From an uncultured Rhodobacterales bacterium (GTDB lineage: Bacteria; Pseudomonadota; Alphaproteobacteria; Rhodobacterales; Rhodobacteraceae): a stretch of 64,000 bases of DNA. The stretch spans positions 1 to 64,000 of the forward strand of contig CAIQOV010000021.1 of the NCBI GenBank assembly GCA_903873585.1. The letters run 5' to 3'. Below, in pieces: positions 4,114-40,714 of this stretch. Under the pieces are notes generated by a model. It saw nothing but the letters and a program-made list of their open reading frames with translations. It had not been told where the DNA came from and ran no database searches. Both the position numbers and the translations under genes were made by a program. How positions within the stretch are numbered: the first letter of the stretch is position 1; every line of letters begins with the position of its first letter.

Positions 4114-4122
4114 GTGCGGGGT

Positions 4123-11994: not shown

Positions 11995-12004
11995 CGTTGC
12001 AGGG

Positions 12005-13006: not shown

Positions 13007-13025
13007 GGCGCTTTCCTTTTTGGCA

Positions 13026-14573: not shown

Positions 14574-15344
14574 ATGCCCCGCTTTGCACTGAAGATCGAA
14601 TATGACGGTGCCCCTTTCAACGGGTGGCAAAGGCAAGCGCAAGGCCAACCGTCGGTGCAAGCGGCGGTTGAAGCAGCGCTGGCCCTGCTTGAACCCGGCC
14701 CCCACACCATCGCCGCCGCAGGGCGCACTGATACCGGCGTGCATGGCACGGGTCAGGTGGCGCATATTGATCTGGTCAAGCCTTGGGATCCTTTCCGGCT
14801 GTCACAAGCGCTGAACCACCACTTGCGCCCGCTGCCCGTCGCCATTCTGGCCTGCGCGCAGGTGCCTGATGAGTTTCACGCCCGCTTTAGCGCGGTAGAG
14901 CGGCGCTACCTTTACCGCATCCTTACCCGCCGCGCACCGCCCGTGCTGGATAAGGGCCAAGTGTGGCATCTGCTTACCCCGCTGGATCTGGCGGCGATGC
15001 AGCAAGGGGCTGCGCATTTGGTGGGGCACCATGATTTCACCACCTTCCGCTCGGCGCTGTGCCAAGCCAACAGCCCGATGAAAACGCTCGATGAGGTGAC
15101 AATCACCGCCCACCCCGTGCCCCACGGCACCGAATACCGCTTTGCTTTGCGCGCGCGGTCGTTCTTGCACAATCAGGTCCGCTCTATGGTGGGCAGCTTG
15201 ATGCGGGTTGGCAGCGGCGCTTGGGCACCTGAGCGGGTGGGTCAAGCACTCGCGGCGCGCGACCGTGCCGCCTGTGGCAGCGTGGCCCCGCCGCAAGGGC
15301 TGTGCTTGACAGGGGTGCGCTATCTGGATGATCCTTTCGCCTAA
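14574..15344 (+). CDS. truA: tRNA pseudouridine(38-40) synthase
   Basis: A 256-residue enzyme converting uridines 38-40 of the anticodon stem-loop. Begins [21 protein letters not shown], has the catalytic Asp in [15 protein letters not shown] (~residue 51), then [12 protein letters not shown] and [18 protein letters not shown], all in the normal places. Full length for the family. No strong ribosome site is visible before the ATG. The SulP gene follows 86 bases downstream in the same direction. Confidence 0.95.
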
Positions 15345-15430
15345 GGCATTTGTTCCAAATTTTTGCGTCACACCCCCTTTGCACCACCAAGCCGCCCCCC
15401 TGACCGGAGCCCCAGTATGGGGACAAACCT

Positions 15431-17056
15431 ATGGCCGACCCAATCCATCCCGCTCCGCAGCGCCCCGCTGCCGAGTTTCTGCCCAAACTGATCACCGTCT
15501 GGCGAGAAGGCTATCATTGGTCCGACCTGCGCGCCGATGCGATGGCGGGGCTGTCGGTGGCAATTGTCGCACTGCCCCTGTCGATGGCCATCGCCATCGC
15601 TTCGGGCCTTGGGCCAGAGCGGGGGTTGTTTACGGCGATTGTCGGCGGGTTCATCGTGTCAGCCTTGGGCGGGTCGCGCTATCAGATCGGCGGGCCTGCG
15701 GGGGCGTTTATCGTGGGCGTGTCAGCCTGCGTGGCGCAAATTGGTGTGCCGGGTCTGATGGTGGCGACCTTTCTGTCAGGCTTTATCCTGATGGCGGCGG
15801 GCGGGCTAAAGCTGGGCAGTTACGTGAAATTCCTGCCCTATCCAGTGACGATCGGCTTCACATCGGGCATCGCGGTCATCATCTTCACCAGCCAGATCAA
15901 AGAGCTTTTGGGCCTGCACCTTGCAGGGGCTGAACCACCCGCTGTGCTGGATAAGTTGGGCGCGTTGTGGGCGGCGCGTGATACCGTGTCACTTCAAGCC
16001 ATAGCCGTTGCCTTGGTGACAATCTTTGCTCTGCAAACCATCAAGAAACTGCGCCCGCATTGGCCCAATTTGGCCATGGCGGTTGTGGGGGTGAGCCTAG
16101 CCGTCTGGGCGCTGCATCTGCCGCTTGATCTGGTGGGCGACCGCTTTGGCACCCTGCCCCGCTTTTTGCCCGCCCCTGTCTGGCCTGATCTGTCGTGGGC
16201 GATGATCCAACGCAGCCTGCCCTTTGCTTTGCAGTTCAGCCTGCTGGGGGCGATCACCGGCCTGTTGTCAGCCCAAGTGGCCGATGGCCTTTCAGGCAAC
16301 CACCACCGCCCCGCGATAGAGCTGTTTGCCGAAGGGGCCGCCAATATCGCCGTGTCGTTCTTTGGCGGGGTTTATGCCACGGGGGCTGTGGCACGCACGG
16401 TTACCAACCACAGCGCGGGGGCCAAGGGGCCGGTGGCGGGAATGCTGCACGCGGTCTTTGTGCTGGGGTTTATGGTCGCCCTTGCCCCCTTGGTGTCATT
16501 CGTGCCCATGGCGGTCTTTGCAGGGCTGTTAAGCGTGGTGGCATGGAATATGGCGGGCAAGGCGCAGTTCTGGATGCTACTACGCACCTCGCGCAGCGAT
16601 GCGCTGATCGTGGTCGCAACCTTTCTGCTGGTGGTGTTTCGTGATCTGACCGAAGGCATCGTGGTGGGCTTTGCGCTGGCCGGCTTGGTGTTTTTGCAGC
16701 GCATGTCGCACAGTGCCGTGATTGACACCGGCGAAGACGGCGACCGTGCTGACCGCGTGGTCGTGCGCCTGTCTGGCCCCTATTTCTTCGGCGCTGCCGC
16801 CCAAACCGGCGCGGTGCTTGACCAAATCGCCGAACACCCGCGCCATTTCGTGCTCGACCTGACAGCACTTGATTATGTCGACAGCTCTGGTGCACGCGCC
16901 TTGGATCTGCTGGCCCTGCGCACCCAGCGCAAGGGCGGGCAAATGGTGCTGCTGGGCGTGCGCCCCAGCCAGCGGCGCATCTTGGAAAAAGCCGGCCTCG
17001 CCCCGCCCTTGGTGCGCTACATCGAAACGCTTGATGCGCTTGATTCGGCGAAATGA
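15431..17056 (+). CDS. SulP-family inorganic anion transporter with STAS domain
   Basis: A 541-residue membrane transporter. About a dozen hydrophobic segments run from residue 35 to ~420 and include the SulP landmarks GLSVAIVALPLSMAIAIASGL, GGSRYQIGGPAGAFIVGV and GGVYATGAVARTVTNHSAGAKGP. A cytoplasmic STAS domain fills ~430-541 (HFVLDLTALDYVDSSGARAL). Substrates in the family include sulfate, bicarbonate, dicarboxylates and molybdate; nothing nearby fixes which. A longer read beginning in truA is not supported. Confidence 0.92.
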   Translation: MADPIHPAPQRPAAEFLPKLITVWREGYHWSDLRADAMAGLSVAIVALPLSMAIAIASGLGPERGLFTAIVGGFIVSALGGSRYQIGGPAGAFIVGVSACVAQIGVPGLMVATFLSGFILMAAGGLKLGSYVKFLPYPVTIGFTSGIAVIIFTSQIKELLGLHLAGAEPPAVLDKLGALWAARDTVSLQAIAVALVTIFALQTIKKLRPHWPNLAMAVVGVSLAVWALHLPLDLVGDRFGTLPRFLPAPVWPDLSWAMIQRSLPFALQFSLLGAITGLLSAQVADGLSGNHHRPAIELFAEGAANIAVSFFGGVYATGAVARTVTNHSAGAKGPVAGMLHAVFVLGFMVALAPLVSFVPMAVFAGLLSVVAWNMAGKAQFWMLLRTSRSDALIVVATFLLVVFRDLTEGIVVGFALAGLVFLQRMSHSAVIDTGEDGDRADRVVVRLSGPYFFGAAAQTGAVLDQIAEHPRHFVLDLTALDYVDSSGARALDLLALRTQRKGGQMVLLGVRPSQRRILEKAGLAPPLVRYIETLDALDSAK

Positions 17057-17327
17057 CCGCCGATGCCGCAGCGCAGAACCTGCCAGCGCGCAAAAGATTC
17101 GGTCGCGCTTGCACCCCGCTAACAAATTATCTTGCGCGCGCGATAGGTTGGCTTCTAATGACCGTGCCAAAGAACCAGTGTTTGCTATTCGGTATGCGAT
17201 GGTATACATGAGCGCAACTTTGGCTTTCTGACAGGCCAAACCTTGTGATAGATTTGAAACTTAGAATATGAAGACAAGACCCGCCGTCGGGAAAACGGGG
17301 CTGCGGGGCTGACCTAGGGGGGATACC

Positions 17328-19286
17328 ATGGACGATCGCGCGCCAACGCTTTACACGGCAACCGCAGACTTTATCGCTAAGGCCAACGTCACTCCGGCGG
17401 GCTATGTGTCGCGGTACACGGCGTCAATGGCCGATCCAGATACGTTCTGGGCGGCCGAGGGGCGGCGGATTGACTGGATCAAGCCTTTCACCAAGGTCAA
17501 GAATTCCACCTTCAAGCTGGGCGAAGTCTCGATCAAATGGTACGAAGACGGCACCACCAACGTCTCGGCCAATTGTATCGACCGCCACATGGTCAAGCGC
17601 GCCAACCAGACCGCGATCATCTGGGAACCCGATGATCCCAAAACCCCCACCCGCCACATCACCTATGCCGAACTGCTAGAGCAGACCAGCCGCTTGGCCA
17701 ACGTGCTGAAAGCGCACGGCGTGACCAAGGGCGACCGCGTTGTGCTGTATATGCCGATGATCCCCGAAGCGGCCTATGCCATGCTGGCCTGCGCGCGGAT
17801 CGGGGCCATTCATTCGGTGGTGTTTGGCGGCTTCTCGCCGGATGCTTTGGCCAACCGCATCAACGATTCCGAAGCCAAGCTGGTGATCACCGCCGACTTT
17901 GGCCCCCGCGCAGGCAAAAAGACTCCGCTGAAATCCAACGCCGATCAGGCCCTGTTGCATTGCAAGGATTCGGTCAAATGCTTGGTCGTCAAACACACCG
18001 GCGATGAAACCCATTGGACCGAAGGCCGCGATTTTGACTTGAAAGCCGAAATGGCCCTAGCCGCGCCCTATTGCCCCTATACCGAAATGGGCGCGGAAGA
18101 CCCGCTGTTTATCCTTTACACCTCAGGTTCGACCGGCAAGCCCAAGGGCGTGGTTCATACAACGGCGGGCTATCTGGTCTATGCGGCCATGACGCATGAG
18201 ATGACCTTTGATTACAAAGACGGCGATGTGTTTTGGTGCACGGCTGATGTGGGTTGGGTCACGGGGCACAGCTATATCGTCTATGGCCCCTTGGCCAATG
18301 GGGCGACAACCGTGATGTTTGAAGGCGTGCCCACCTTCCCCGACGCTGGCCGCTTCTGGGAGGTGATTGCCAAGCACAAAGTCACCCAGTTCTACACCGC
18401 CCCCACCGCGATCCGCAGCCTGATGGCGATGGGCACCGAACCAATCGAAAAGCACGATCTGTCGTCGCTGCGCTTGCTGGGGTCGGTCGGTGAACCGATC
18501 AACCCCGAAGCGTGGAACTGGTATTTCACCAACATCGGCAAGGGCAAGTGCCCCATCGTTGACACCTTTTGGCAAACCGAAACGGGCGGGCATATCATCA
18601 CCCCCCTCCCCGGTGCGATTGCGCAAAAGCCCGGCTCGGCCACCAAGCCCTTCTTCGGTGTGCGCGCTGAAGTGCTAGATGCGGCAACCGGTGCGGTGCA
18701 AACCGCCACCGAAACAGACGGCGTGTTGTGCATCGCTGACAGCTGGCCGGGCCAGATGCGCACGCTGTGGGGCGACCACCAGCGCTTTGAAGAGGCGTAT
18801 TTTGCGCAATATCCGGGCTATTACTTCACCGGCGACGGCTGCCGCCGCGATGCGGACGGCTACTATTGGATCACGGGCCGTGTGGATGACGTCTTGAACG
18901 TGTCGGGCCACCGCTTGGGCACCGCCGAGGTCGAATCCGCCCTTGTCGCCCATCCCAAGGTCGCCGAAAGCGCCGTTGTGGGCTACCCGCATGACATCAA
19001 AGGCCAAGGCATCTACGCCTATGTCACCTTGATGCGCGGGATAGAGCCTTCGGAAGACCTGCGCAAAGAGCTGGTCAAATGGGTGCGCACCGAGATCGGG
19101 CCGATCGCCACGCCCGACCTGATCCAATGGGCCCCCGGCCTGCCCAAGACCCGCTCTGGCAAGATCATGCGCCGCATTCTGCGCAAGATCGCCGAGAATG
19201 ATTTTGGCGCGATGGGCGACACCTCGACCTTGGCAGACCCTGCCGTGGTGGATGATCTGATCGCCAACCGCATGAATAAAGTTTGA
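17328..19286 (+). CDS. acs: Acetyl-CoA synthetase
   Basis: A 652-residue AMP-forming ligase making acetyl-CoA from acetate, ATP and CoA. Motifs: [15 protein letters not shown] (P-loop-like A3), [32 protein letters not shown], the hinge region [18 protein letters not shown] and the acetylation-controlled lysine in [18 protein letters not shown] tract lies just before the ATG. The 271-base upstream region has no gene and probably carries a regulated promoter. The MHS-family permease directly downstream may supply acetate or another monocarboxylate. Confidence 0.96.
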
Positions 19287-23283: not shown

Positions 23284-24195
23284 TTAGCCTGCAAAAGGCT
23301 GGCCGAGTGAGGCCACAGTGTTCAGCCGCATCCTGCGGCGGTTGGATGAAATCACCGCCAGCATCAAAATCGTCACCCCGTAGGGCAGCGATGCCAAAAG
23401 CTGCGAGGGCAATGCCACCCCCGCCGCCTGCGCAATCAGCCCGCCCAAAGACAGCGCGCCAAACAGCAGCGCACCGAAGACGATTCGCCCCGCGGCCCAA
23501 GTGCCAAACACCACAAGCGCCACGGCAATCCAGCCACGCCCCGCGATCATGCCATCCGCCCAAAGTGGGGTGTAAATGGTCGAGGCATAGGCCCCCGCCA
23601 TCCCCGCCATCGCCCCGCCAAAAGCCACAGCCGCCAGCCTGATACGCAGCACACGAAAGCCCAGCGCCCGCGCCGCTGATGGGTTTTCGCCCACCGCGCG
23701 GATGATCAGGCCCAGTTTGGAATGGTTCAGAACGGCCCAGATCACCACCGCCAAGGCCAGCGTCAAGAACACCACCAGATCCTGTTCGAACAAGGCCCCG
23801 ATCACCGGCAGATCGGCCAACAGCGGTATCGCAAGTTTGGCCGGCGCATCCAGCGTTTGGCTTTCCAGTGGCTTACCGATCAAGGATGACAGCCCCAGCC
23901 CCAGCACCCCAATCGCCAGCCCCGCAGCCACCTGATTGGCCATAAAACCCAAGGCGAGCATGGCAAAGACCAGCGACAGGGCCAGCCCCGCCAAAGCCGC
24001 AGCGGCAAAGCCCAAGACGGGGGCGTGGGTGTTGTAGGTGACAACAAAGCCCACAGCCGCGCCTAGGGCCATCATGCCCTCGATGCCAAGGTTCAAGACA
24101 CCGGCGCGTTCGGTGATAAGCTCTCCAAGGGCGGCCAGCAGCAGGGGGGTGGCGGCGGCTAGGGTTCCGGCAAGGATAAAGGCTAAGATCGTCAT
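23284..24195 (-). CDS. BMP-system ABC transporter permease, second subunit
   Basis: A 303-residue inner-membrane permease of the branched-chain/ribose-like class used in nucleoside and purine importers. It carries the family segment ITERAGVLNLGIEGMMALGA (residues 27-46) and NPSAARALGF in the cytoplasmic coupling region, with about eight to nine hydrophobic segments. Last gene of the eight-gene purine-type operon; its start overlaps the stop of the first permease. It should form a heterodimeric channel with that protein. Confidence 0.92.
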   Translation of the reverse strand: MTILAFILAGTLAAATPLLLAALGELITERAGVLNLGIEGMMALGAAVGFVVTYNTHAPVLGFAAAALAGLALSLVFAMLALGFMANQVAAGLAIGVLGLGLSSLIGKPLESQTLDAPAKLAIPLLADLPVIGALFEQDLVVFLTLALAVVIWAVLNHSKLGLIIRAVGENPSAARALGFRVLRIRLAAVAFGGAMAGMAGAYASTIYTPLWADGMIAGRGWIAVALVVFGTWAAGRIVFGALLFGALSLGGLIAQAAGVALPSQLLASLPYGVTILMLAVISSNRRRMRLNTVASLGQPFAG

Positions 24196-25262
24196 GCGCG
24201 CCGTGTCCAGTTCAAGATCACCCGATGGCGGATGAAGGTTAGGCTGGCAAGGTAGAACACCAACAGCAGCCCCTGAAAGACAAACACCGCCGCGACCGGC
24301 AAATCGGCCGACACCATCGCATTGTCACCGCCGATAAAGAGTGCTGCCATCAAAAAGGCCGACACCACGATGCCCAAGGGGTTCAGCCCGCCAAGATAAG
24401 CCACGATGATCGCCGAATAGCCGTAGCCGGTGGAGACTGAGCGTTGCAATTGTCCCAAAGGCCCTGCGACCTCGCAAGCGCCCGCAAGGCCCGCCATCAA
24501 CCCACCCAGCAGCAGGCTGACCCACACGGCCCGCGCTTCGGTGAAGCCTGCATAGCGCGCCGCACGCGGCGCAAGGCCGCCGACCAGCAGTTGATAGCCC
24601 GAAAAGCGGTGGCGCATCATCACATAGGCCAAAGCGCTCACGAGCAGCGCGGCGAGCAGCGAGATATTCACCCGCGTGCCCGTCAGCAGAATGGGCAGAA
24701 GGGCGGCATCGGGGAAGGTCACGCTTTGGGGGAAGTTAAAGCCGTGCGGGTCTTTCCACGGGCCAAGCAGCAGATAGTTCAGCACTTGGGTGGCGATCAG
24801 CGTCAGCATCAAGGTGACAAGGATTTCATTGGCATTGAACCGCACCCGCAAGCCTGCCGCTATGCCTGCCCAAGCCGCCCCGCCCAAAGCGCCCATTGCT
24901 ATCATAGCGGGCAGCATCAAGGGCGATGATCCTTCGGGGAAATACACCGGCAAAGCACTGGCACACAGCGCCCCGATGATAAGCTGCCCTTCCGCCCCGA
25001 TGTTGAACACATTGGCGCGAAAGCCAATCGCCAGCCCTTGGGCGATCAGCATCAAAGGCCCCATTTTCAGCAAGACTTCCGAGATATTGTACCAGCCCAC
25101 AAAGGGTTCTAGCAGCAGCGAATACAGCGCTTGGCCTGCGGGTTTGCCGAGGGCGGCGAACAAGATCAGGCTGGTCAGCATGGCCAGACTCAAGGCGATG
25201 ACGGGGGCCGCAAACAGCACAGGCCGCGACAGGGCAGCGCGGCGTTCAAAGGTGATTTTCAT
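24192..25262 (-). CDS. BMP-system ABC transporter permease, first subunit
   Basis: A 356-residue permease with around ten membrane segments. Diagnostic stretches are IAQGLAIGFRANVFNIGAEGQ (written here in part: FRANVFNIGAEGQLIIGAL), FNANEILVTLMLTLIATQ and GGLAPRAARYAGF, as in YufP/NupP-like nucleoside permeases. The ATG overlaps the stop of the ATPase gene and its own stop overlaps the next permease, so all three are translationally coupled. Substrate follows from the operon: probably a purine base, nucleoside or related heterocycle. Confidence 0.92.
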   Translation of the reverse strand: MKITFERRAALSRPVLFAAPVIALSLAMLTSLILFAALGKPAGQALYSLLLEPFVGWYNISEVLLKMGPLMLIAQGLAIGFRANVFNIGAEGQLIIGALCASALPVYFPEGSSPLMLPAMIAMGALGGAAWAGIAAGLRVRFNANEILVTLMLTLIATQVLNYLLLGPWKDPHGFNFPQSVTFPDAALLPILLTGTRVNISLLAALLVSALAYVMMRHRFSGYQLLVGGLAPRAARYAGFTEARAVWVSLLLGGLMAGLAGACEVAGPLGQLQRSVSTGYGYSAIIVAYLGGLNPLGIVVSAFLMAALFIGGDNAMVSADLPVAAVFVFQGLLLVFYLASLTFIRHRVILNWTRRA

Positions 25263-26755
25263 GCCGCAGCCCCGATCATATAGGTGCCGATCTGTTCCAC
25301 ACTGGTCGCCGCCACATCAAGCGAGGGCGACAGGTGCCCCTTGTGCAGCACCTGCAAGCGGTCGCAGATTTCAAACAGCTCGTCGATCTCTTCCGAGATC
25401 ACCACAATCGCAGCCCCTGCGTTGCGCATCGCAACCAATCGTTGGCGAATTTCTGATGCAGCGCCGATATCCACACCCCACGTCGGTTGGGCCACCAGCA
25501 GCACAGACGGGTTCAACATCATCTCGCGGCCCATGATGAACTTTTGCAGATTGCCGCCCGAAAGGGATCCCGCCTCGGCCTGCGGGCCTGCCGTGCGCAC
25601 ATCGAACCTTGTGATACACTCTGCCGTAAAGGCGCGTTCGGCCTTGCGGTTGATAAAGCCGTTTTGCACCAACCCACGGGAATGGGCGGTGAGCAGCGCG
25701 TTGTCGGCCAGTGACATATCCGGCACAGCCCCGCGCCCAAGCCGGTCTTCGGGCACAAAGGCCAACCCGCGCTTGCGCCGTGCAGCAGCGCCCAGATCGC
25801 CCACGGGGTGGCTCATTAATGTCACGCTAGAAGCGCTTGATTTCAATGCAATCTCACCCGAAATCAGCGCGGCCAATTCTTGCTGGCCATTGCCCGAAAT
25901 GCCCGCGATGCCCAAAATCTCTCCACCCCGCACCGAAAGCGAGACATCTTTCAGTGACACGCCGAACGGGTCTTCGTTGGCAAAACTTAAGGCCGTCAGC
26001 GCCAGCCGCTCTTCTCCTAACCCATGCGGGGTGGGATGCACGGGGGGCGGCATGGGGCGGCCGATCATCAAGGTGGCAAGGTCGTGGGCTGTGCCTTGGC
26101 GCGGGTCAAGACGCGCTGTCACGCGACCTTGGCGCAGGATCGTGGCGCAATCGCACAACTCGCGGATTTCTTCCAGTTTGTGGCTGATGAACAAAATCGC
26201 CATGCCCTTGGCCCGCAGCGCACGCAACGTGTCAAACAGCAGGGCCACAGATTGCGGCGGCAGAACGGATGTTGGCTCGTCCAAGATCAACAGCTTGGGG
26301 TTCAACAGCAGGCAGCGGATAATCTCGACCCTTTGGCGTTCGCCCACCGACAGCGAATGCACCATGGCTTGCGGGTCAACCGACAGGCCAAAGGCTGCGC
26401 CAAGGTCGCGGATGCGCGTGGCGAGTTCGGCCTTAGACCCCGGCACGATCAGCGCCATGTTTTGTACGACACTGAGCGTTTCGAACAAGGAAAAGTGCTG
26501 AAACACCATGCCAATGCCCAAACGCCGCGCATCAGACGGGCTGGATAGGGCAACCGCCTGACCCTGCCAGAACACCTGCCCCTCATCGGGGCGTTCCACG
26601 CCATAGATCAGCTTCATCAGCGTGGATTTGCCCGCGCCATTTTCGCCCAAAATCGCGTGGATCGTGCCGGCATCAACCCTAAGGTCGATGCCGGCATTGG
26701 CTTGCACCCCGCCATAGCGTTTGGAGACGCCAGAAAGCTGCAACAGCGGGGCCAT
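25259..26755 (-). CDS. BMP-system ABC transporter ATP-binding protein with two ABC domains
   Basis: A 498-residue tandem ATPase. Domain 1 has Walker A GENGAGKST, the LSVGERQRVEIIRCL signature and Walker B LLILDEPTSVL. Domain 2 (from ~250) has a degenerate nucleotide loop GISGNGQQELA and the signature LSGGNLQKFIMGREM, typical of ribose/nucleoside-type importers (YufO/RbsA layout). Powers uptake through the two permeases encoded immediately downstream. Nine bases separate its ATG from the stop of the binding-protein gene. Confidence 0.94.
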   Translation of the reverse strand: MAPLLQLSGVSKRYGGVQANAGIDLRVDAGTIHAILGENGAGKSTLMKLIYGVERPDEGQVFWQGQAVALSSPSDARRLGIGMVFQHFSLFETLSVVQNMALIVPGSKAELATRIRDLGAAFGLSVDPQAMVHSLSVGERQRVEIIRCLLLNPKLLILDEPTSVLPPQSVALLFDTLRALRAKGMAILFISHKLEEIRELCDCATILRQGRVTARLDPRQGTAHDLATLMIGRPMPPPVHPTPHGLGEERLALTALSFANEDPFGVSLKDVSLSVRGGEILGIAGISGNGQQELAALISGEIALKSSASSVTLMSHPVGDLGAAARRKRGLAFVPEDRLGRGAVPDMSLADNALLTAHSRGLVQNGFINRKAERAFTAECITRFDVRTAGPQAEAGSLSGGNLQKFIMGREMMLNPSVLLVAQPTWGVDIGAASEIRQRLVAMRNAGAAIVVISEEIDELFEICDRLQVLHKGHLSPSLDVAATSVEQIGTYMIGAAA

Positions 26756-26764: not shown

Positions 26765-27853
26765 TTACTTCGGCAGGGGCGTGGTGACGCCCTTCACGTG
26801 CCAATCCATCGACAAGATCATATCGTCGCCCAAGGTCACGCCCGCTGCAACCTGTTCTGCGCCATCTTGGTTTGTGATGGGGCCTGTGAAGGGAGAGAAA
26901 GCGCCCGATTCAATGGCAGCTTGCATTTCTGTGATCTTAGCCACGATATCGGCGGGGATATCGGGGTTCCAATCGGCGACAAACACGCATTTATCGGCCA
27001 TGCTCAGCCAAGCCGACGCGCCTGCAAAGGTGCCCGCCAGATGCGCTTCGACCGATTGCAGGAAGTAAGGCGCCCAATCGGTGCCTACAACGCCTAAGTA
27101 CTTGGTCGGCGCATAGGCTTTCATCGAAGAGTTGAGGTTAAACGCATAAACCCCCGCCTCTTCCGCCGTCTGGATCACCGAAGGCGTGTCTTGCGCGTTC
27201 GAGAAGATCACATCCACGCCCTGCGAGATCAGCGCCTTGGCCGCTTGCTGTTCTGACGCCGGATCGAACCACGAGTTCACCCAGACAACCGACACTTCAA
27301 TCGACGGGTCAACCGATTGCGCGCCCAAGGTAAAGGCGTTGATCGAGGTGATCAGTTCGGGGATAGCAAAGGCCCCAACGCAGCCCAGTTTCTTAGACTT
27401 GGTCAGCGAGGCGGCCGCCATGCCCATCAGATACGTGCCCTGATAGTAGCGCGCACCGAAGGGCGAGAAGTTCTCCGCCGTCTTATAGCCCGAAGCGTGC
27501 AAGATCGACATTTCGGGATGGGCCTTGGCCAGCTTTAGCCCACCTTCCATGTAACCAAACGAGCCCAAGATCAGGAACGTGGTCCCATCCGCTGCGGTCT
27601 TGTTCATGATGCGGTCGGCATCGGGGCCTTCGGCGATGTTTTCCAGAAGGGTCACTTTGACCTTGTCACCATATTTGGCTTCAAGCGCCTTGGTGCCCAG
27701 TTCCAGCGTATGCGACCAACCCACATCAGCGGCGGGCGAGGGCACGATCAGCGCGACGTTCAGCACATCCGCGGCGAAGGCCGGCATGGGCAGGGCAAGG
27801 GCTGTGCTGGCAGCCAGAGACGTTTTCAGAAAGCTGCGGCGGTTCAAAGACAT
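26765..27853 (-). CDS. BMP-family substrate-binding protein of ABC importer
   Basis: A 362-residue periplasmic binding protein (basic membrane protein / PnrA class). The N-terminus MSLNRRSFLKTSLAASTAL is a twin-arginine signal (RRSFLK), cleaved after MPAFA, so it is probably exported folded. Core motifs: VALIVPSPAADVGWSHTLELG, FLILGSFGYMEGGLK, YLMGMAAASLTKSKKLGCVGAF and VDVIFSNAQDTPSVIQTA. BMP proteins of this type bind nucleosides or purine-like ligands. It lies 31 bases after the deaminase gene, tying uptake to the catabolic genes. Confidence 0.92.
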   Translation of the reverse strand: MSLNRRSFLKTSLAASTALALPMPAFAADVLNVALIVPSPAADVGWSHTLELGTKALEAKYGDKVKVTLLENIAEGPDADRIMNKTAADGTTFLILGSFGYMEGGLKLAKAHPEMSILHASGYKTAENFSPFGARYYQGTYLMGMAAASLTKSKKLGCVGAFAIPELITSINAFTLGAQSVDPSIEVSVVWVNSWFDPASEQQAAKALISQGVDVIFSNAQDTPSVIQTAEEAGVYAFNLNSSMKAYAPTKYLGVVGTDWAPYFLQSVEAHLAGTFAGASAWLSMADKCVFVADWNPDIPADIVAKITEMQAAIESGAFSPFTGPITNQDGAEQVAAGVTLGDDMILSMDWHVKGVTTPLPK

Positions 27854-27884: not shown

Positions 27885-29255
27885 TTAAGTCAAGGTGCGG
27901 TGCAGGGCGGCTTCAGCTTCGGCAAACAATTTGCCCTCGTCAAGGCCGGGGAATGTGCCGTTTTGCCAAAGGATGCGGCCATTGGCCATGGTCAGATCGG
28001 TGGTCGAACCGATACCGACTTTGGCAATCAAGCTGACAGGATCATGACGGGTTCCCACATAGTCCATTTTGCGGGTGTCGATGGCGAACAGGTCTGCTGC
28101 CATGCCCACGCCCAAGCGGCCAATATCGCGCCGCCCCAAAAGGTCAGCCCCGCCTTGGGTGGCATAGTGCAGGAATTGCCCCGGATCTGGCACAGGATGT
28201 TTGCGCCCTGATGCCACCAAGCATTGCAGCATATAGGCCGAATGGATGCAGTGCATCAGGTTGGAATTGTCATTCGACGCCGCCCCATCCACCCCCAGCC
28301 CAATGCGCAACCCCATGGCCTGCATCGCGGGGATATCGGTCACTTCGGCCCCCACCAGATAAACTGGTTCGGGGCAATGCGACACGCCGGTGTTAGTTGC
28401 CGCCAACTGCGCCAGTTCGGTATGGGTTAACTCCCACGCATGGGCATAGAAGGTGTCGGGGCCGCAAAAGCCCATCTCTTCCAGATAATCCACTGTGCGT
28501 TTGCCGGTGCGGGCCTGCATCACGGGGCTTTCGCCCTCGCCCACATGGGAATGTAAGAACACCCCCTTATCCCGCGCCAGCCGCACCGATTCGACAAAGG
28601 TTTCGCGGTAGCAATTGACCGGCTGACATGGCGAAATCACCACCTGCCGCAGGCTGAATTCGCCCGCATCGTGGTATTGGTCGATCACCCTTTCGCAATC
28701 GGCCAGAAATCCATCGGTGGATTCGAGCATCTCGTCAGGGATGGTGGAGCCTTCGGCCTTGGGCAGCGTATTGCCGCCCCTTCCGGCATGAAAGCGCAGG
28801 CCAAACAGGTCGGCGGCTTCAAACTGGCGGTCGATGATGCGCGAACCGGCGTGGCGGGGGAAGTTGTACTGATGGTCAAACGCCGTGGTGCAGCCGTGTT
28901 TGATCAGCTCTGCCATCGCCACAACCGACGAATGGTAAAAGCAGTCTTCCGTCAGGCGGGCGAAGATTGGATAGATGCGGTCCAGCCATTGCAGCACCGA
29001 CAGCTTGGTCCAATCCAGATCGGCGCGGTTGCGCACGAAGGTTTGGAAGAAATGGTGATGCGTGTTGATCAGGCCGGGGTAGACAAACCAGCCTGTGGCG
29101 TCGATCACTTGCGTGCCTTGGGGCAAAGGGCCTGCCGACAGGTTGGGGCCGATGGCCGTAATGGCGGGGCCTTGGATCAAGATATCTTGATCGCGCAGCA
29201 CCGGCAGATGGGATGATCGCACAATCGCAGCACAGGATTTCAGCAGATATCCCAT
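27885..29255 (-). CDS. Amidohydrolase, 8-oxoguanine/isoxanthopterin deaminase type
   Basis: A 456-residue metal-dependent deaminase of the cytosine/guanine-deaminase-like amidohydrolase superfamily. Metal and catalytic motifs: NTHHHFFQ (64-71), LHSHVGEGE, SHCPEPVY and GLGVDGAASNDNSN. The combination with VISPCQPVNCYRE and WLDRIYPIF is what I associate with 8-oxoguanine deaminases (Pa0142-like) and the close isoxanthopterin deaminases; residues that separate the two cannot be judged by eye. It would convert an amino-oxopurine or pterin to the oxo form. Its ATG overlaps the TGA of the GST gene by one base. Confidence 0.88.
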   Translation of the reverse strand: MGYLLKSCAAIVRSSHLPVLRDQDILIQGPAITAIGPNLSAGPLPQGTQVIDATGWFVYPGLINTHHHFFQTFVRNRADLDWTKLSVLQWLDRIYPIFARLTEDCFYHSSVVAMAELIKHGCTTAFDHQYNFPRHAGSRIIDRQFEAADLFGLRFHAGRGGNTLPKAEGSTIPDEMLESTDGFLADCERVIDQYHDAGEFSLRQVVISPCQPVNCYRETFVESVRLARDKGVFLHSHVGEGESPVMQARTGKRTVDYLEEMGFCGPDTFYAHAWELTHTELAQLAATNTGVSHCPEPVYLVGAEVTDIPAMQAMGLRIGLGVDGAASNDNSNLMHCIHSAYMLQCLVASGRKHPVPDPGQFLHYATQGGADLLGRRDIGRLGVGMAADLFAIDTRKMDYVGTRHDPVSLIAKVGIGSTTDLTMANGRILWQNGTFPGLDEGKLFAEAEAALHRTLT

Positions 29256-29905
29256 CAGGCCACCTTTGGTGCAGGGCTAAGTTCGTGCAAACGGTGAATG
29301 CCGGGCATTTCGATAAACCGGTCCAAAGCGCGGATGCGCCGCGTCCATAGGCGCACGCTTGGATAGGCATCAAGGCTAACGCCGCCGTCTTGGCTTAGGG
29401 CCACGTTGGGAAAACAGGCGATGTCGGCGATAGAGGGCGTATCCCCCACCAGCCACTCGCCGCCCGCAAAGCGCCGCTCGGTCAATGCCGCTTCCAACTC
29501 GCGCAGCGCGGCGTGACCTTGCTCGCGCCAAACGACAATATCGCCCTGATACAGCAGCATATCATGCAGCCGCGCCATTCCCAAACTTGCCGCCAAGCGG
29601 CCCGAAAAGGCCAGCCAGTGCTGCACCTGTGCGGCGGCTTTGGCGTCCACTGGCCCCAACCAGTCTGGCCCTGCTAGCTTTGCCAGATACACCAGCATCG
29701 CGGTGCTTTCGGTCAAGATCATCGCGCCATCAACCATCACGGGCAGCGTGCCTGCGGGGTTCAACTGGGCAAACGCCACCGACTTATGCGCCCGACCGGG
29801 GTGAAAATCGACCGCTTCATGGTCCATCTTCACACCCAGCAAAGCCGCCATCAGCCGGATTTTGTAGCAACTGGCACTGAGCACATAATCATAAAGCTTA
29901 ATCAT
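29255..29905 (-). CDS. Glutathione S-transferase-like protein, NdmE-like by context
   Basis: A 216-residue GST. The thioredoxin-like N-terminal domain (MIKLYDYVLSASCYKIRLMAALLG, NPAGTLPVMVDGAMILTESTAMLVYL) and all-helical C-terminal domain (WLVGDTPSIADIACFPNVAL) are intact, with Ser/Cys at the usual active site (SASCYK). GST homologs next to Rieske-less oxygenase subunits have a precedent: NdmE, a structural partner in the NdmCDE N7-demethylase of caffeine degradation. Translation is coupled to the oxygenase gene (four-base overlap) and to the deaminase gene. The NdmE-like role is inference from context, not from a residue signature. Confidence 0.88.
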   Translation of the reverse strand: MIKLYDYVLSASCYKIRLMAALLGVKMDHEAVDFHPGRAHKSVAFAQLNPAGTLPVMVDGAMILTESTAMLVYLAKLAGPDWLGPVDAKAAAQVQHWLAFSGRLAASLGMARLHDMLLYQGDIVVWREQGHAALRELEAALTERRFAGGEWLVGDTPSIADIACFPNVALSQDGGVSLDAYPSVRLWTRRIRALDRFIEMPGIHRLHELSPAPKVA

Positions 29906-30744
29906 GCTGCCACCATCTGCGCGCCATACGTTAGCCCGCGTTTCTTAAGCCAACGGCGATACGCGATCGAGGTGAGGTCGGCCTGTGTGGGAATCTCCAT
30001 CCCCGGATCCAGCGGCAACAGGCGGGGGATCTGGTTTTCCAAGATCGAGCGGTCTTGCAAGAAGATCATCTGCTGAAAGGCGATCAGTTCGGCTTGCGGG
30101 GTGACATCGTCATACAGCGCCATCCACGGCCACACATCGCACAACTCTTCGGTCAGGGGCTGCACAAAAATGCCAATCACATCCCAAGCATCCGTTCTAT
30201 TGGGGCAGGTTTTATAAAGCACCGCCGCCGTGGGGGCGGGCACGCGGTACATATATTGGGTCACAATCCCGCCTTCAGCCGATTTGGCGGCTTGGGGTTG
30301 ATAGAAGGTGACTTTGGTGGCCCAAACCTCGTCACTATCCTCGCGGATTTGCACCTCGTAGCGGTTCACCTCGGTGTGGGGTTCAGCGCCCAGAACATCG
30401 GTGTGAACAAAGGGGAAATGCGCGATGTCCAGAAAGTTTTCCACCGCCCGCAAGGGCGAGCATTTGACCCGCACCACCCCCACATCCACCAAGCGGCGAC
30501 CGGGTTCTAGCGCTTCGGGGATGGGGAACAGATCATGCGCAGGGGTGCCGGGGCAGGCCCAGACATGGCCGAAGGCTTCGGTGACATGCAGCGCGCCACC
30601 CTGCCCTGTCACCACAATCGCGCCCTTTTGCAGATCAACCGTGATCGGTTGGCCCAACAACTGCGTCACCCGCCGCTGGCCTGCGCGGATTTGGGCGGCC
30701 ATGGCCACGGGATACCATTCGTTCAAAACCTGTTGCGCGATCAT
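29902..30744 (-). CDS. Rieske-type oxygenase catalytic subunit lacking its own [2Fe-2S] domain
   Basis: A 280-residue protein from the ATG at 30744, which overlaps the stop of the Rieske gene; the open frame to 30789 is rejected. It keeps the N-terminal NEWYPVA strand of ring-hydroxylating oxygenases, but the CxH and CxxH cluster loops are missing. The mononuclear iron site is intact: VENFLDIAHFPFVH (Asn103, Asp106, His109, His114), with Asp231 in FLQDRSILENQIP as the third ligand. This is the design of NdmC, the N7-demethylase subunit of caffeine degradation that borrows electrons from a Rieske domain on another chain. I infer a monooxygenase or N-demethylase acting on a purine-like substrate; the substrate itself is unknown. 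Confidence 0.85.
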   Translation of the reverse strand: MIAQQVLNEWYPVAMAAQIRAGQRRVTQLLGQPITVDLQKGAIVVTGQGGALHVTEAFGHVWACPGTPAHDLFPIPEALEPGRRLVDVGVVRVKCSPLRAVENFLDIAHFPFVHTDVLGAEPHTEVNRYEVQIREDSDEVWATKVTFYQPQAAKSAEGGIVTQYMYRVPAPTAAVLYKTCPNRTDAWDVIGIFVQPLTEELCDVWPWMALYDDVTPQAELIAFQQMIFLQDRSILENQIPRLLPLDPGMEIPTQADLTSIAYRRWLKKRGLTYGAQMVAA

Positions 30745-31367
30745 GCGGCCACCTTCATTTCCGCGCGGCGGCGCAGATCTTCCACCCAACGCGAGACGGC
30801 AACCTTATCCGCCCCCACCCCGCACAAAGCGTGCAGCGTCAGGCCAGCGGGGCCCTCTTGCGCCACAAGGCAAACCTGTTGCCCCTGCTCGCCGATCTGA
30901 ACCGTTGCGCGCAAGATATCTTGGCCTTGCAACGCGGGTTCAGCAGCTAACACAGCCGCCACATCGCAAGTCAGGCTGATGCTGCGCAGCGGTTGCAGAT
31001 CACTTAGCACAGGCGGCGCGCCGGCCATATCGGCAGGTGCTACCCAGATCACGCCGTCTTGTTCCACACAGGCAAAACTTGCCACCGTGATCGTCGCAGG
31101 CGGGGTCAGCGCGGGATGGGCGGGAATGTGCTTGCACCCGCCATCCGCCCCGTAAACCCAACCGTGATAGATACAGGCCAAAGTCTCACCGCGCACAAAG
31201 CCGTGCGACAGGCGCATCCCGCGATGCGGGCAGCGGTCGTTCCATGCCTGCAATCGGCCCGTGGCACTGCGCCAAACGGCCAGATCATGACCCTGCCAAT
31301 GGCCTGCCATGACCACCGCCTTGGGCAGATCTTGTGACAGGCCGGTGGCGATCCAACGCGGTGTCAT
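30741..31367 (-). CDS. Stand-alone Rieske [2Fe-2S] protein, electron donor to the adjacent oxygenase
   Basis: A 208-residue protein; start at ATG 31367 with AAGGAG upstream (the frame is open to 31586 but that part is not protein-like). The Rieske site is complete: Cys46-x-His48 in RCPHRGMRLSHG and Cys65-x2-His68 in CIYHGWVYG. The C-terminal ~100 residues have no mononuclear-iron ligands, so it cannot be an oxygenase alone. First gene of the operon, overlapping the cluster-less oxygenase subunit by four bases: together they look like one Rieske oxygenase split in two. A reductase is not encoded nearby. Confidence 0.87.
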   Translation of the reverse strand: MTPRWIATGLSQDLPKAVVMAGHWQGHDLAVWRSATGRLQAWNDRCPHRGMRLSHGFVRGETLACIYHGWVYGADGGCKHIPAHPALTPPATITVASFACVEQDGVIWVAPADMAGAPPVLSDLQPLRSISLTCDVAAVLAAEPALQGQDILRATVQIGEQGQQVCLVAQEGPAGLTLHALCGVGADKVAVSRWVEDLRRRAEMKVAA

Positions 31368-31497: not shown

Positions 31498-31836
31498 TCA
31501 GGCAGCGGGTGAAGAGGATTCCGCATCCATGCGATCATTTGCCCTGCGCCGATCCACCTGATCCACCCAAACCTCTTGCGGGCCAAGGCTGCACGCCAAG
31601 GCCATAGCGTCGAGCAAATCGGGCGGGCCGGACACGATCATATCCAGCCGCGCCCCGCTTTGTGCCACAAAGCGCAAGCCCAACCCCAACCGCGCGGCGT
31701 GCCGCGTGATCCACCACGGAAAGACCGCAGCGCCCACCTGCCCGCAAAGGGCGAAATGTTCGGTGACATCGGCAGAGGGTGGCGCTGCGGGCATAGCGGG
31801 CGATCCTTGGGCGTTCGGGGCGCATCCTTGCGGCAT
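31498..31836 (-). CDS. Degenerate acylphosphatase-like protein
   Basis: A 112-residue protein when started at 31836 (AAGGGG site upstream); a much longer frame to 32490 is only an antisense shadow of the carboxypeptidase gene. Residues ~25-95 (FALCGQVGAAVFPWWITRHA, LGLGLRFVAQSGARLDMIV, PPDLLDAMALAC, VDQVDRR) follow the acylphosphatase pattern of strand, helix and strands. The catalytic Arg of GxVQGVxFR is Pro here and the catalytic Asn position reads Gln, so enzymatic activity is doubtful. It could instead be a ligand-binding relative. Divergent from the carboxypeptidase gene and 130 bases upstream of the Rieske operon on the same strand. Confidence 0.6.
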   Translation of the reverse strand: MPQGCAPNAQGSPAMPAAPPSADVTEHFALCGQVGAAVFPWWITRHAARLGLGLRFVAQSGARLDMIVSGPPDLLDAMALACSLGPQEVWVDQVDRRRANDRMDAESSSPAA

Positions 31837-37441: not shown

Positions 37442-38398
37442 TCACCGCGCGCCGCGCGCGTGGAAGATGAAGCCTAGAAAGTTCAGCAAGACCTGTGCCG
37501 CCAAGATCGCGGTCGATTGGCTGTGGTCGTAATCGGGCGCCACCTCGACCAGATCAATCCCCACGATGTCATGCGCCTTTGCCACCTGTTGCAGCAGTTC
37601 CAGCACCTCGTAATACAAGAACCCGCCGTGGCTGGGCGTGCCTGTGCCCGGCGCGATAGAGGGGCAAAAGCCGTCGATGTCGATCGTCACATAAAGCCGC
37701 GCGCCTTTGGGGATGCGGGCGGCCACGCCTTGCGGGCCAAGGGCGCGGAATTGGCGCACAGACAGAATGTCAGACCCCATGGCGCGGGCCGCTTCATACC
37801 CATCACGCGCGGTCGATGACACGTTGCGAATGCCCACTTGCGTCATGCCCGTGACATAAGCCTTTTCCGCTGCACGCCGCAGCGGCGAGCCGTGGCCCAC
37901 CTTGACCCCGTGGCGTTCATCGACAAAATCCAGATGCGCGTCGATTTGCAGGATGTGGATCGGGCCTTGGTCGGCAAAGGCCTCGATACAGGGGATGTTG
38001 ATGGAATGGTCGCCGCCAATCACCACGGGCAAGGCCCCCGCGCGCAAAATCGCCTGAACACCGCTGCGAATGTTGGCATGGCTTTGCGCCGTGTCAGTAT
38101 GCACGATGTCGGCATCGCCGATATCGACGATGCGCACCGATTGCGGCAGATAGGTCGCGTCATCCTCGTGGTCATAGGCCCCCGCATGGCCAAAGCTGAA
38201 CAGGGTTGACGCTTCGCGCACCGCGCGCGGGCCAAAGCGGGCACCGGCGCGAAACTGGGTGCCAAAGTCATAAGGCGCGCCCATCACCGCCACATCGGCG
38301 TCGATGGCGGACCAATCCTCGACATAGGGGCGCTTGCCAAAGGTAGAGATGCCCACAAAGGGCAGGTTCAAACGGCCAGTGTCGTAGCTATGCGCCAT
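37442..38398 (-). CDS. Agmatinase-family ureohydrolase
   Basis: A 318-residue enzyme of the arginase/agmatinase superfamily, expected to cleave a guanidino compound to urea and an amine. Manganese ligands: GGDHSI, QIDAHLDF and TIDIDGFCPSIAPGTGTPSHGG. Two differences from textbook agmatinase: DAHLDFVDE replaces DAHTDT, and the DxDxxDP box reads DIDGFCP, with Cys in place of the third Asp. The substrate may be agmatine, guanidinobutyrate or another guanidine. Last gene of the polyamine-type ABC operon, ten bases after the second permease. Confidence 0.88.
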   Translation of the reverse strand: MAHSYDTGRLNLPFVGISTFGKRPYVEDWSAIDADVAVMGAPYDFGTQFRAGARFGPRAVREASTLFSFGHAGAYDHEDDATYLPQSVRIVDIGDADIVHTDTAQSHANIRSGVQAILRAGALPVVIGGDHSINIPCIEAFADQGPIHILQIDAHLDFVDERHGVKVGHGSPLRRAAEKAYVTGMTQVGIRNVSSTARDGYEAARAMGSDILSVRQFRALGPQGVAARIPKGARLYVTIDIDGFCPSIAPGTGTPSHGGFLYYEVLELLQQVAKAHDIVGIDLVEVAPDYDHSQSTAILAAQVLLNFLGFIFHARGAR

Positions 38399-38408: not shown

Positions 38409-39380
38409 TTAATGCGGGGTAATGCCGCGCAAGCGTTCTGACCTGCGCCGCAGCAATTCCACCGTGGCCAAAAGCGCCACAGACACGATCACCAAAATCG
38501 TAGCGACCGCCAGAATGGCCGGAGAAATCGCCTCACGGATGCCGTTGAACATCTGGCGCGGGATGGTTTGCTGATCGGGGCCTGCGATGAACAGCACGGC
38601 CACCACCTCGTCAAACGAGGTGACAAAGGCGAACAAGGCCCCAGAGATCACCCCCGGCAGGATCAGCGGCATCACCACTTTGAAGAACGTGGTCCTAGGA
38701 TTTGCGCCCAAAGAATGCGCGGCACGGATCAGCGATTGGTCAAACCCCGACAGCGTCGCTGTCACCGTGATGATCACGAACGGAATGCCAAGCACCGCAT
38801 GCGCCACAATCACCCCCAGATGCGAATTGGCCAGACACCCTTTTTCCGACAGGAACGGCCCTACGAGGGGGGCAAACACGCTATCGGGCGGCACACAGGC
38901 TTGGGCGTAAAAAAAGCTCATCCCGACCGCGATGATGATGATTGGCACGATCATCGGACTGACGAGGATCGCCATAATCAGCCCACGATAGGGCATTTCG
39001 CGGCGCGATAGGCCAAGCGCTGCAGTGGTGCCCAAAACCGTGGCCAAAACGGTTGCCCAAAGCCCGACCCAGAAGGAATTCTTGGCCGCCTGCACCCAAG
39101 TTGCGCGCTCCCAGACCAAAGCCCACCAAGCGCTGTCGCGCGGCGTGTCTGGCGATGGGTGGCCCAGCGTTAACAGCGTGTCATACCAGCGCAGCGAATA
39201 GCCTTGCGGATCAAACGACAGCATCTTTTCGGTAAAGCTGAAATAGGGTTCTGCGTTGAACGACAACGGCACGACCAGCAGGATCGGCGCTATCAGAAAG
39301 ATGAAGATCAGCGTGCAGATCACCAGATAGGCATAGTGCCAGATCCGTTCCAAAGGCGATGCGTAAGTTGGAAGTGCCAT
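38409..39380 (-). CDS. Polyamine-type ABC transporter permease (PotC-like)
   Basis: A 323-residue permease with six main membrane segments. The coupling motif RAAHSLGANPRTTFFKVVMPLILPG (EAA loop) lies at about 225-250. A periplasmic loop between the first and second helices is longer than in PotC (FSFTEKMLSFDPQGYSLRWY and onward). Belongs with the PotB-, PotD- and PotA-like genes upstream on the minus strand and the ureohydrolase downstream, so it probably imports a polyamine or guanidino-amine. Confidence 0.9.
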   Translation of the reverse strand: MALPTYASPLERIWHYAYLVICTLIFIFLIAPILLVVPLSFNAEPYFSFTEKMLSFDPQGYSLRWYDTLLTLGHPSPDTPRDSAWWALVWERATWVQAAKNSFWVGLWATVLATVLGTTAALGLSRREMPYRGLIMAILVSPMIVPIIIIAVGMSFFYAQACVPPDSVFAPLVGPFLSEKGCLANSHLGVIVAHAVLGIPFVIITVTATLSGFDQSLIRAAHSLGANPRTTFFKVVMPLILPGVISGALFAFVTSFDEVVAVLFIAGPDQQTIPRQMFNGIREAISPAILAVATILVIVSVALLATVELLRRRSERLRGITPH

Positions 39381-39390
39381 GATATGCTCC

Positions 39391-40644
39391 TTAACCCAAC
39401 TTCAGCCGGTCAATGCCGACTAAGCGATCATATATCCAATACAAAAGCAGGATCGCTGCCAGCAACATTGCCGCAAGCGCCGCAGCCAGCGACCAGTTTG
39501 ATTTGTTCATGTGAAAGCTGATCAGGTTGGAAATCAGTTGCCCTTCGGCCCCCCCAACCAAGGCTGGGGTGATGTAGTAGCCCACAGCCAGAATAAACAC
39601 CAACAAGGAGCCAGCCGCTATTCCGGGCAAAGTCTGCGGCAGATAGATGCGCCGAAACGTGGTCCATGATGTGGCCCCAAGGCTGCGCGCTGCGCGTGCA
39701 TAAGATGGCGGAATAACCCGCATCACCGAATAAAGCGGCAAAATCATGAAGGGCAGCAACACATGGGTCATCGCCACGATCGTGCCCGTCATGTTGTACA
39801 TCATCGAAAGGCGGTTCTCGTTTGACACGACCCCCAAAGCCACCAGAGCGTCATTGACGATCCCCTGTTCCTGCAACAAGGCAATCCACGCGGTTGTGCG
39901 CACCAAAAGCGATGTCCAAAACGGCAAGAGCACCAGGATCATCAAAAGCGATGATTTTGACATCGGCAGTACGGCCAGCAGATGCGCCACAGGAAAGGCC
40001 AGCACCATGCAGATCAAGGTGATGATGCCTGACACAAGGAAGGTCTTGAAGAAGAGATAAAGGTAAATTCGCTGCTTGTCGTCGCCCCGTTCCCATCCGG
40101 TTGCGGTCAGCTTGCGGTCGGCGGCGACCTGATAGAAATCTGTGGTCCACTTTGACGCTGCCGATTCCATTCCATACCACAACGCAGGGTCGCCCCATGC
40201 GGGGTCTAGCTTGAGCATCGCCTCTTTGAACGGCGGTTGCATATCGCCCGCCTCGCGCGCGCCCTTCTTGAACAGGCTGATGCTGCCGGGCACGGTGTAG
40301 TTGATGCGCGTTCCCGCCATGCCGGTGTTCTTGTCGGCTTGCATTTGGGCAAGGTCTGTCACCAAGGCGGCAAAGGCGCCTTCGGGTGGGTTCATATGGT
40401 CAAACTCTGGGTTGGCGTGAAACCATGCGGTCAGGGTCGGCGAGGATTTGGAAAACCCATCATGCTCGACCGAGCGTTTCAACATATAGCCAATCGGGAT
40501 CAGAAAGGTCAAAAGCACAAACACCAGCAAAGGCAACACAAGCAAAAATGCCTTGCGCTTTGAGCGGGCTTGGGCCGCAACAAGCGCCTCGCGCAAAGGC
40601 CGGCCATCGGCGGTTTTCAAAAGCTCTGGTGTGGCCGGGATCAT
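39391..40644 (-). CDS. Polyamine-type ABC transporter permease (PotB-like) with large periplasmic loop
   Basis: A 417-residue permease; I start at ATG 40644 (AAGGAA upstream) instead of the ATG seven codons earlier. The first helix (FLLVLPLLVFVLLTFLIPIGYML) is followed by ~140 extramembrane residues rich in charged and aromatic residues, about 100 more than E. coli PotB, before the second helix. The EAA loop YARAARSLGATSWTTFRRIYLPQTLPG is normal. It probably pairs with the PotC-like protein; the big loop may dock the binding protein. Confidence 0.9.
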   Translation of the reverse strand: MIPATPELLKTADGRPLREALVAAQARSKRKAFLLVLPLLVFVLLTFLIPIGYMLKRSVEHDGFSKSSPTLTAWFHANPEFDHMNPPEGAFAALVTDLAQMQADKNTGMAGTRINYTVPGSISLFKKGAREAGDMQPPFKEAMLKLDPAWGDPALWYGMESAASKWTTDFYQVAADRKLTATGWERGDDKQRIYLYLFFKTFLVSGIITLICMVLAFPVAHLLAVLPMSKSSLLMILVLLPFWTSLLVRTTAWIALLQEQGIVNDALVALGVVSNENRLSMMYNMTGTIVAMTHVLLPFMILPLYSVMRVIPPSYARAARSLGATSWTTFRRIYLPQTLPGIAAGSLLVFILAVGYYITPALVGGAEGQLISNLISFHMNKSNWSLAAALAAMLLAAILLLYWIYDRLVGIDRLKLG

Positions 40645-40714
40645 GCCGCGTTCCTTTTTGTGCAAATTGGGCGCGGAGATTCCCCCCCGCGCCCTGCTTT
40701 GGGCTTTTGCCCGA

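Follow-up and report, generated by a model that had tools for sequence, protein, structure and literature searches.

Results

The window analysed here, 64,000 nucleotides of contig CAIQOV010000021.1 from an uncultured Rhodobacterales bacterium (assembly GCA_903873585.1, positions 1 to 64,000), carries on its reverse strand an operon for a Rieske-type oxygenase whose two iron centres are divided between two proteins. The Rieske chain (30741..31367, 208 amino acids) matches PF00355 with 71.6 bits and no other Pfam domain, and the catalytic chain (29902..30744, 280 amino acids) has PF19112 (VanA_C, 72.9 bits) as its only Pfam match. Next to them lie an NdmE-like chain of the glutathione S-transferase (GST) kind (29255..29905, 216 amino acids, Pfam matches to GST_N and GST_C only) and an amidohydrolase of the NdmH type, i.e. 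of N2,N2-dimethylguanine hydrolases (27885..29255, 456 amino acids, PF01979). The reading frames are closely packed, with overlaps of four bases between Rieske and catalytic gene (30741-30744), four bases between catalytic and GST gene (29902-29905) and one base between GST and hydrolase gene. A first-pass annotation had described a Rieske-only protein, a Rieske-less catalytic protein and an adjoining GST-like gene. Its coordinates, strand, 4-base overlaps and gene neighbour are all correct, and Pfam matches, ligand positions and missing loops agree with its division into two proteins.

The ligands of the [2Fe-2S] cluster are C46, H48, C65 and H68 of the Rieske chain (CxH...CxxH). In the catalytic chain the mononuclear iron is assigned to H109, H114 and D231, with D106 as bridging residue and N103 completing the motif. 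Both ligand sets of a Rieske oxygenase, the cluster and the 2-His-1-Asp site with its bridging Asp, are thus present and split over two chains. All nine positions are invariant in the window and in the best 80 of 514 confirmed relatives (81/81), which were chosen by their catalytic chain in a scan of named genomes. Rieske non-heme iron oxygenases are recognized by the presence of both centres on one alpha chain; here the centres sit on separate proteins, and the C-terminal domain of the Rieske chain (about 124-207) is devoid of an iron site.

Comparison with the solved SxtDIOX assigns each chain to its part of a full-length oxygenase: residues 4-113 of the Rieske chain match residues 11-122, and the catalytic chain aligns over its residues 46-275 with residues 101-333. 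In an alignment with two full-length relatives, the catalytic chain does not contain the stretch bearing both cluster loops. Since it also weakly resembles SxtDIOX residues 8-36, the missing part corresponds to this cluster-loop stretch. AlphaFold2 models, calculated from alignments of the window with 41 (Rieske) and 35 (catalytic) of the 80 loci, reached a mean predicted local distance difference test score (pLDDT) of 95.5 for the Rieske chain (42 aligned sequences) and 85.0 for the catalytic chain (36 aligned sequences), the latter with values below 50 at residues 111-123, one iron ligand included. With Foldseek, the catalytic model matched full-length Rieske oxygenases with TMq values of up to 0.84. 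Full-length Rieske oxygenases were also the best matches of the Rieske chain model, with TMq values of up to 0.77; the result carries no aligned ranges, but as the Rieske domain alone makes up little over half of the 208 residues, such a value implies that the C-terminal domain is partly superposed as well.

The modelled folds suggest that the two chains might be paralogues of one oxygenase alpha chain that underwent complementary loss, one having kept the cluster and the other the iron. Sequence comparison gave no proof of a remnant catalytic domain at the C-terminal end of the Rieske chain. Profile comparison with the catalytic chains gave a weak signal (9% probability, P 9e-4), a second comparison aligned just 40 N-terminal columns, and comparison with full-length oxygenases gave no match, so that the relation is read from the fold matches. 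A second Rieske chain found in Komagataeibacter (locus L031, 6787-7320) comprises only 177 amino acids and has lost much of this domain, which may therefore be dispensable in one lineage.

The three genes form a stable unit. The best 80 loci, which include Pseudorhodobacter, Rhizobium, Mesorhizobium, Paracoccus, Marivita, Pleomorphomonas and Granulosicoccaceae, have Rieske and GST genes adjoining the catalytic gene in every case (80/80), mostly with 4-base overlaps (Rieske/catalytic 68/80, catalytic/GST 67/80), so that the trio cannot be a chance arrangement. The co-occurrence in other genomes that the first-pass reading called for is thereby given. An amidohydrolase of the window's type is found in 71 of the 80 loci, some contigs ending early. 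Most loci keep the whole operon, in the order acylphosphatase-like gene, Rieske, catalytic, GST, amidohydrolase, BMP-type binding protein, ATP-binding cassette (ABC) ATPase and two permeases. With no gap above 1.2 kb this order occurs in 59 of 82 sequences, namely the 80 loci, the window and the plasmid locus L033. The other 23 are explained by contig ends, an extra end hit, a missed hit, sorting of overlapping frames or a different amidohydrolase (3). L033 lacks the Rieske gene and has the GST gene on the opposite strand.

Matches to the catalytic chain are also frequent on plasmids (306 of 72,556 records at E 1e-5, 125 of these at 60-80% identity). Four annotated plasmid records of the near kind show the same operon; in Rhizobium etli the place of the acylphosphatase-like gene is annotated 'hypothetical protein'. 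Of 16 genomes examined in the window's genus, its own among them, 10 gave a match, which in G006 was to more distant forms only. At E 1e-20 the catalytic chain is matched in 24 of 390 genomes of the order and 10 of 385 of the class, the own genome included in both; these counts take in fused forms, and full-length oxygenases account for two of the matches in the class.

To place the module among characterized enzymes, the ndm cluster of Pseudomonas putida plasmid pTmex-577K (locus L182), a genuine caffeine-type cluster, served as reference. One of its oxygenases matches solved NdmB end to end (785 bits), the second full-length oxygenase was taken for NdmA, and S-(hydroxymethyl)glutathione dehydrogenase, S-formylglutathione hydrolase and a nucleobase symporter are annotated in it. 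The window's catalytic chain is 42.8% identical to NdmC over 278 amino acids, the Rieske chain 39.2% to NdmD residues 8-137 (130 amino acids) and the GST chain 41.3% to NdmE (206 amino acids). With full-length oxygenases the identity of the catalytic chain falls to 29% (HpxD) and 23-24% (NdmB and the NdmA-like protein), over shorter spans. The homology to NdmC, the NdmD Rieske domain and NdmE predicted at first pass thus holds for all three chains at 39-43% identity.

A tree of catalytic chains (79 rows; 16 of the 80 loci plus short loci from the genus, order and class scans with a match above 200 amino acids; labels 'shared' set by hand) separates the Rieske-less chains including NdmC from five full-length oxygenases (support 97/98) and places the window inside a branch of 40 split rows (99/99). 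The phylogenetic check proposed with the first-pass reading therefore falls in its favour, as the catalytic chain shares a branch with NdmC far from the full-length enzymes. Likewise, a tree of Rieske sequences (68 rows; 15 of the 80 loci, identical rows dropped) sets standalone chains together with NdmD Rieske ends apart from full-length ones (100/100). The split form may have come first, with NdmD arising by fusion, or the fused form may be the older one. In the catalytic tree, most fused rows fall within the split ones, where long branches call for caution, but the opposite arrangement is not rejected by the approximately unbiased test (p 0.352), and the Rieske tree places NdmD rows outside the standalone ones (89/75).

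The hydrolase next to the GST gene provides the substrate clue. According to the accessible part of PMC13054789 (2026), N2,N2-dimethylguanine hydrolases (NdmH) occur in Pleomorphomonas oryzae, Haliea and a Rhodobacteraceae bacterium, and key residues are named there; NdmH alone converts dimethylguanine to xanthine with release of dimethylamine, and AtzB and NdmH fall into one cluster with broad substrate range. All 13 residues named in that part for the P. oryzae enzyme (poNdmH), i.e. CQNN together with Q74, W85, W93, Y98, Y133, E243, H275, P300 and D326 in poNdmH numbering, are present in the window's hydrolase and in 73 of 73 aligned members of its clade. In the Pleomorphomonas locus (L087) they stand at the published numbers. 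By comparison, an 8-oxoguanine-type protein of Paracoccus alcaliphilus differs at 5 of the 13 positions. The label 8-oxoguanine deaminase was rejected for the window's hydrolase, which scores 363 bits with model PRK08203, under the NCBIfam equivalog cut-off of 532, and has the NdmH residue set.

Seven amidohydrolases from other clusters of the module were scanned against curated cut-offs. In place of the NdmH type, guanine deaminase was found over its cut-off in three loci (L137, L145 and L170), all on the window's 40-row branch, and 8-oxoguanine deaminase in the more distant L032 and L158. Common to the assigned hydrolases is action at a guanine's C2 substituent. Such neighbours would suit an N7-demethylase like NdmC: from 7-methylguanine it would make the guanine that a guanine deaminase uses, and from N2,N2,7-trimethylguanine the substrate of NdmH. 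The adjoining NdmH-type hydrolase points to a methylated guanine as probable substrate, and a methylguanine role of the recurrent operon appears likely.

Five further genes complete the operon. Downstream of the hydrolase, a substrate-binding protein of the BMP/PnrA type (26765..27853, reverse strand like the four following, PF02608, 135.9 bits) is followed by an ABC transporter ATP-binding protein (25259..26755, an open reading frame of 498 amino acids) and two permeases (24192..25262 and 23284..24195); the latter three are assigned from their reading frames, the conserved order and Rhizobium counterparts annotated accordingly. Upstream of the Rieske gene, a small acylphosphatase-like protein (31498..31794, 98 amino acids with the chosen ATG start) is 41% identical to its counterpart in Rhizobium johnstonii. 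Its gene is found in this place in 78 of the 80 loci and also beside distant split modules; no feature annotated as acylphosphatase was seen in the ndm-type regions viewed. Two glycines and an LGP motif are invariant in 89 of 89 aligned sequences. At the place which we take to be that of the catalytic Arg of acylphosphatases, inspection by eye of 22 sequences revealed no Arg. The Rhizobium counterpart reached 20.7 bits, under the Pfam gathering score of 22.5. The small protein is probably not an acylphosphatase, to judge from these residues, and possibly a further subunit. The GSTs of the window's type have T65 in 78, E66 in 69 and S67 in 73 of 82 sequences. NdmE (R-D-A) and six of its kin show R at the first of these positions, D or E at the second and A or S at the third. 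By their conserved residues, the window-type GSTs may still bind glutathione. Elsewhere in the window, a gene over the agmatinase cut-off (37442-38398, reverse strand) adjoins two genes that look by eye like ABC permeases (38409-40665, same strand), perhaps for polyamines.

Other arrangements of the module were encountered. A linked VanB-type reductase accompanies the split trio in Paracoccus alcaliphilus and Komagataeibacter nataicola. The cluster of the latter, an isolate from kombucha, holds two split trios and two full-length oxygenases, one with NdmB as best solved match (434 bits; NdmA 418), the other with NdmA (559 bits). The cluster on K. nataicola plasmid pKNA08 (L031, 4908-16973) recurs with 94-99% protein identity in a genome of the window's family (G365, locus L157), by either recent transfer or contamination. 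In three genomes (L158-L160), a single Rieske/GST pair has a catalytic gene on either side, the two being different, and in Sinorhizobium meliloti one NdmD-like gene is preceded by two catalytic genes. Two catalytic genes per Rieske/GST pair or NdmD-like gene imply that several catalytic chains may be served by one shared electron-delivery pair. The sets of L158, L159 and L160 also hold an acylphosphatase-like gene, a BMP/ABC transporter and three amidohydrolases; L159 has in addition a gene resembling, by eye, a GMC oxidoreductase.

With regard to electron supply, the first-pass annotation had noted a missing reductase. This proved right for the window's contig, on which no match to Fer2 or NAD_binding_1 (E 0.001) and none of the VanB type was obtained. 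Within the 82 sequences (up to about 20 kb each), the search for a linked VanB-type reductase gave a single weak match (25%, in L142). The only VanB-type match of the own genome at E 1e-5 lies on contig 33, in a cluster (L156, about 4000-18000) which we take, from its appearance, to serve trimethylamine and dimethylamine breakdown. Dimethylamine is also the product released by NdmH, as stated in the accessible part of PMC13054789. Among the 24 genomes of the order with a catalytic-chain match, 18 have a VanB-type match at E 1e-20 (254 of 390 overall); some of these 18 carry NdmD-like genes or a VanB gene within the cluster, which would match as well. As it is missing in 6 of 24 genomes, a VanB-type protein is not the general partner, and a VanB/DmmB-type reductase was rejected as general donor. 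A ferredoxin-type protein on contig 33 and a ferredoxin-reductase-type protein on contig 37 are candidate donors.

Discussion

We propose that the operon encodes a GST-dependent, two-chain Rieske oxygenase that N-demethylates methylated guanines and is supplied by an unlinked electron carrier, a reading to which we give an even chance. A methylated guanine, as base or nucleoside, would be imported by the BMP/ABC transporter. The 208-residue chain would hold the cluster and the 280-residue chain the mononuclear iron, both clasped together by the GST-like protein. In ordinary Rieske oxygenases, electrons pass via such an Asp between neighbouring subunits. Here they would leave the cluster histidines and reach the mononuclear iron by way of the partner chain's D106, and an unlinked, shared ferredoxin or reductase would feed the cluster. 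The oxygenase would remove a ring N-methyl group, most likely at N7, as formaldehyde, and the NdmH-type hydrolase the exocyclic N2-dimethylamine; the two steps could take place in either order and would deliver xanthine to the purine pathway. This proposal draws on the homology of three chains to ndmCDE, the separation from full-length oxygenases in both trees, the conserved order of nine genes, the NdmH residues and the guanine-type deaminases at other loci. The Komagataeibacter split modules, with a VanB-type reductase beside NdmA/NdmB homologues, are also counted in its favour.

Several observations weigh against it. Since NdmH alone reaches xanthine (PMC13054789, accessible part), the oxygenase could act on another compound; the activity reported there was demonstrated for relatives and not for the window's hydrolase itself, and the text of that paper nowhere uses the word 7-methyl. 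Two of the seven scanned amidohydrolases do not reach a guanine-type assignment, the enzyme of L163 falling just under the guanine deaminase cut-off (373.9 vs 375.4) and a second one of L158 under every cut-off. The operon's nine genes include no formaldehyde gene, in contrast to the ndm cluster of pTmex-577K. The T-E-S residues as opposed to R-D-A of NdmE imply that the role of the window-type GSTs may differ. Finally, the six genomes of the order devoid of a VanB-type match all carry the split trio (G112, G137 and G164, shown directly, and G254, G394 and G426, concluded from their absence among the hits).

Other substrates have to be considered for the same pair of chains. As in NdmCDE, it could act on a methylxanthine, either 7-methylxanthine, which the NdmH-type enzyme would produce from a guanine methylated at position 7, or methylxanthines of external plant origin. 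The closest characterized relative found, NdmC, belongs to a 7-methylxanthine N7-demethylase according to the accessible part of PMC4408171, and in the kombucha isolate split modules stand beside NdmA/NdmB homologues. The window's operon, however, adjoins a guanine-type hydrolase instead of a full-length oxygenase, and an identity of 43% to NdmC is compatible with a different substrate, which makes a methylxanthine unlikely in our view. The reaction could also be directed to the neighbouring ring position, i.e. hydroxylation at C8 of a guanine-type base as performed by HpxD on xanthine. HpxD, annotated as molybdenum-cofactor-independent xanthine hydroxylase, is indeed among the full-length relatives, and two related clusters contain an 8-oxoguanine deaminase over the cut-off. 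We nevertheless hold C8 chemistry to be quite unlikely, given that the catalytic chain is nearer to NdmC (43%) than to HpxD (29%) and that at the 5 of 13 discriminating positions the window's hydrolase is NdmH-like and not of the 8-oxoguanine type.

A different N-alkylated ring, such as an s-triazine or pterin, would be conceivable if the NdmH-type neighbour came from a promiscuous group, and the common broad-range cluster of AtzB and NdmH described in the accessible part of PMC13054789 lends some colour to this. It is improbable in light of the CQNN set of the window's hydrolase, which replaces the SSII set of AtzB, and of the BMP-type transporters and guanine-type hydrolases that recur next to the module.

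Beyond the two-chain demethylase itself, a wider pathway can be sketched, which we regard as rather doubtful at present. Alphaproteobacteria might possess a widespread route for methylguanines that stem from RNA, among them the cap types methylated at N7 (7-methylguanine and N2,N2,7-trimethylguanine). In it, a hetero-oligomeric Rieske oxygenase of two paralogous chains, each devoid of the metal centre kept by the other and both held by the GST, would demethylate N7, NdmH would remove dimethylamine, the acylphosphatase-like protein would act as fourth subunit and one Rieske/GST pair would serve several catalytic chains.

The suspicion of an undescribed variant voiced at first pass stands in one respect: no earlier description was found in the open-access papers searched. 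The notion of a local oddity does not, as many rhizobial and rhodobacterial genomes share the form. The wider family has been noticed before, since the review PMC4408171 mentions that Sinorhizobium and Mesorhizobium have ndmCDE homologues whose function is unknown. PMC8055839 lists ndm homologues for bacteria of the coffee borer. The open-access search yielded no paper joining dimethylguanine or 8-oxoguanine deaminase with Rieske proteins, and, among the papers listed, nothing relevant on 7-methylguanine catabolism or on a standalone or split Rieske form. Within the accessible main text of PMC13054789, the words Rieske, operon and ABC transporter are absent. The findings give an orphan oxygenase family a testable substrate, as the hydrolase beside the operon has a likely substrate class reported in 2026. 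They also offer a natural system with cluster and iron on separate, exchangeable chains, in which the role of the GST becomes testable, and they establish the standalone-Rieske form as a conserved operon in many alphaproteobacteria.

Compared with the full-length enzymes SxtT/GxtA, NdmA/NdmB and HpxD, the window's pair has the same folds and the same kind of cluster and iron ligands; there, both centres are located on one chain, whereas each chain of the pair carries one. In P. alcaliphilus and K. nataicola, Rieske, catalytic and GST chains are separate genes as in the window, but a PDR/VanB reductase is linked, which the window's operon does not have. The likeness to NdmH lies in the adjoining hydrolase, a neighbour enzyme and not the oxygenase (PMC13054789, accessible part). 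The nearest system is NdmCDE of Pseudomonas putida CBB5, the N7-demethylase of 7-methylxanthine (PMC4408171, accessible part), and the NdmC/NdmE-like module proposed at first pass was essentially assigned to the right family, in view of homology, tree branch, co-occurrence and the contig's lack of a reductase. Both systems combine a Rieske-less catalytic chain with a GST-like partner and a Rieske domain on another chain. In NdmD this domain is fused to a flavin/2Fe-2S reductase, in contrast to the separate Rieske protein of the window, and only in the window's operon do an acylphosphatase-like protein, an NdmH-type hydrolase and a BMP/ABC transporter adjoin. The two-chain oxygenase with its GST looks like a cousin of the caffeine enzyme NdmCDE that has so far received little study.

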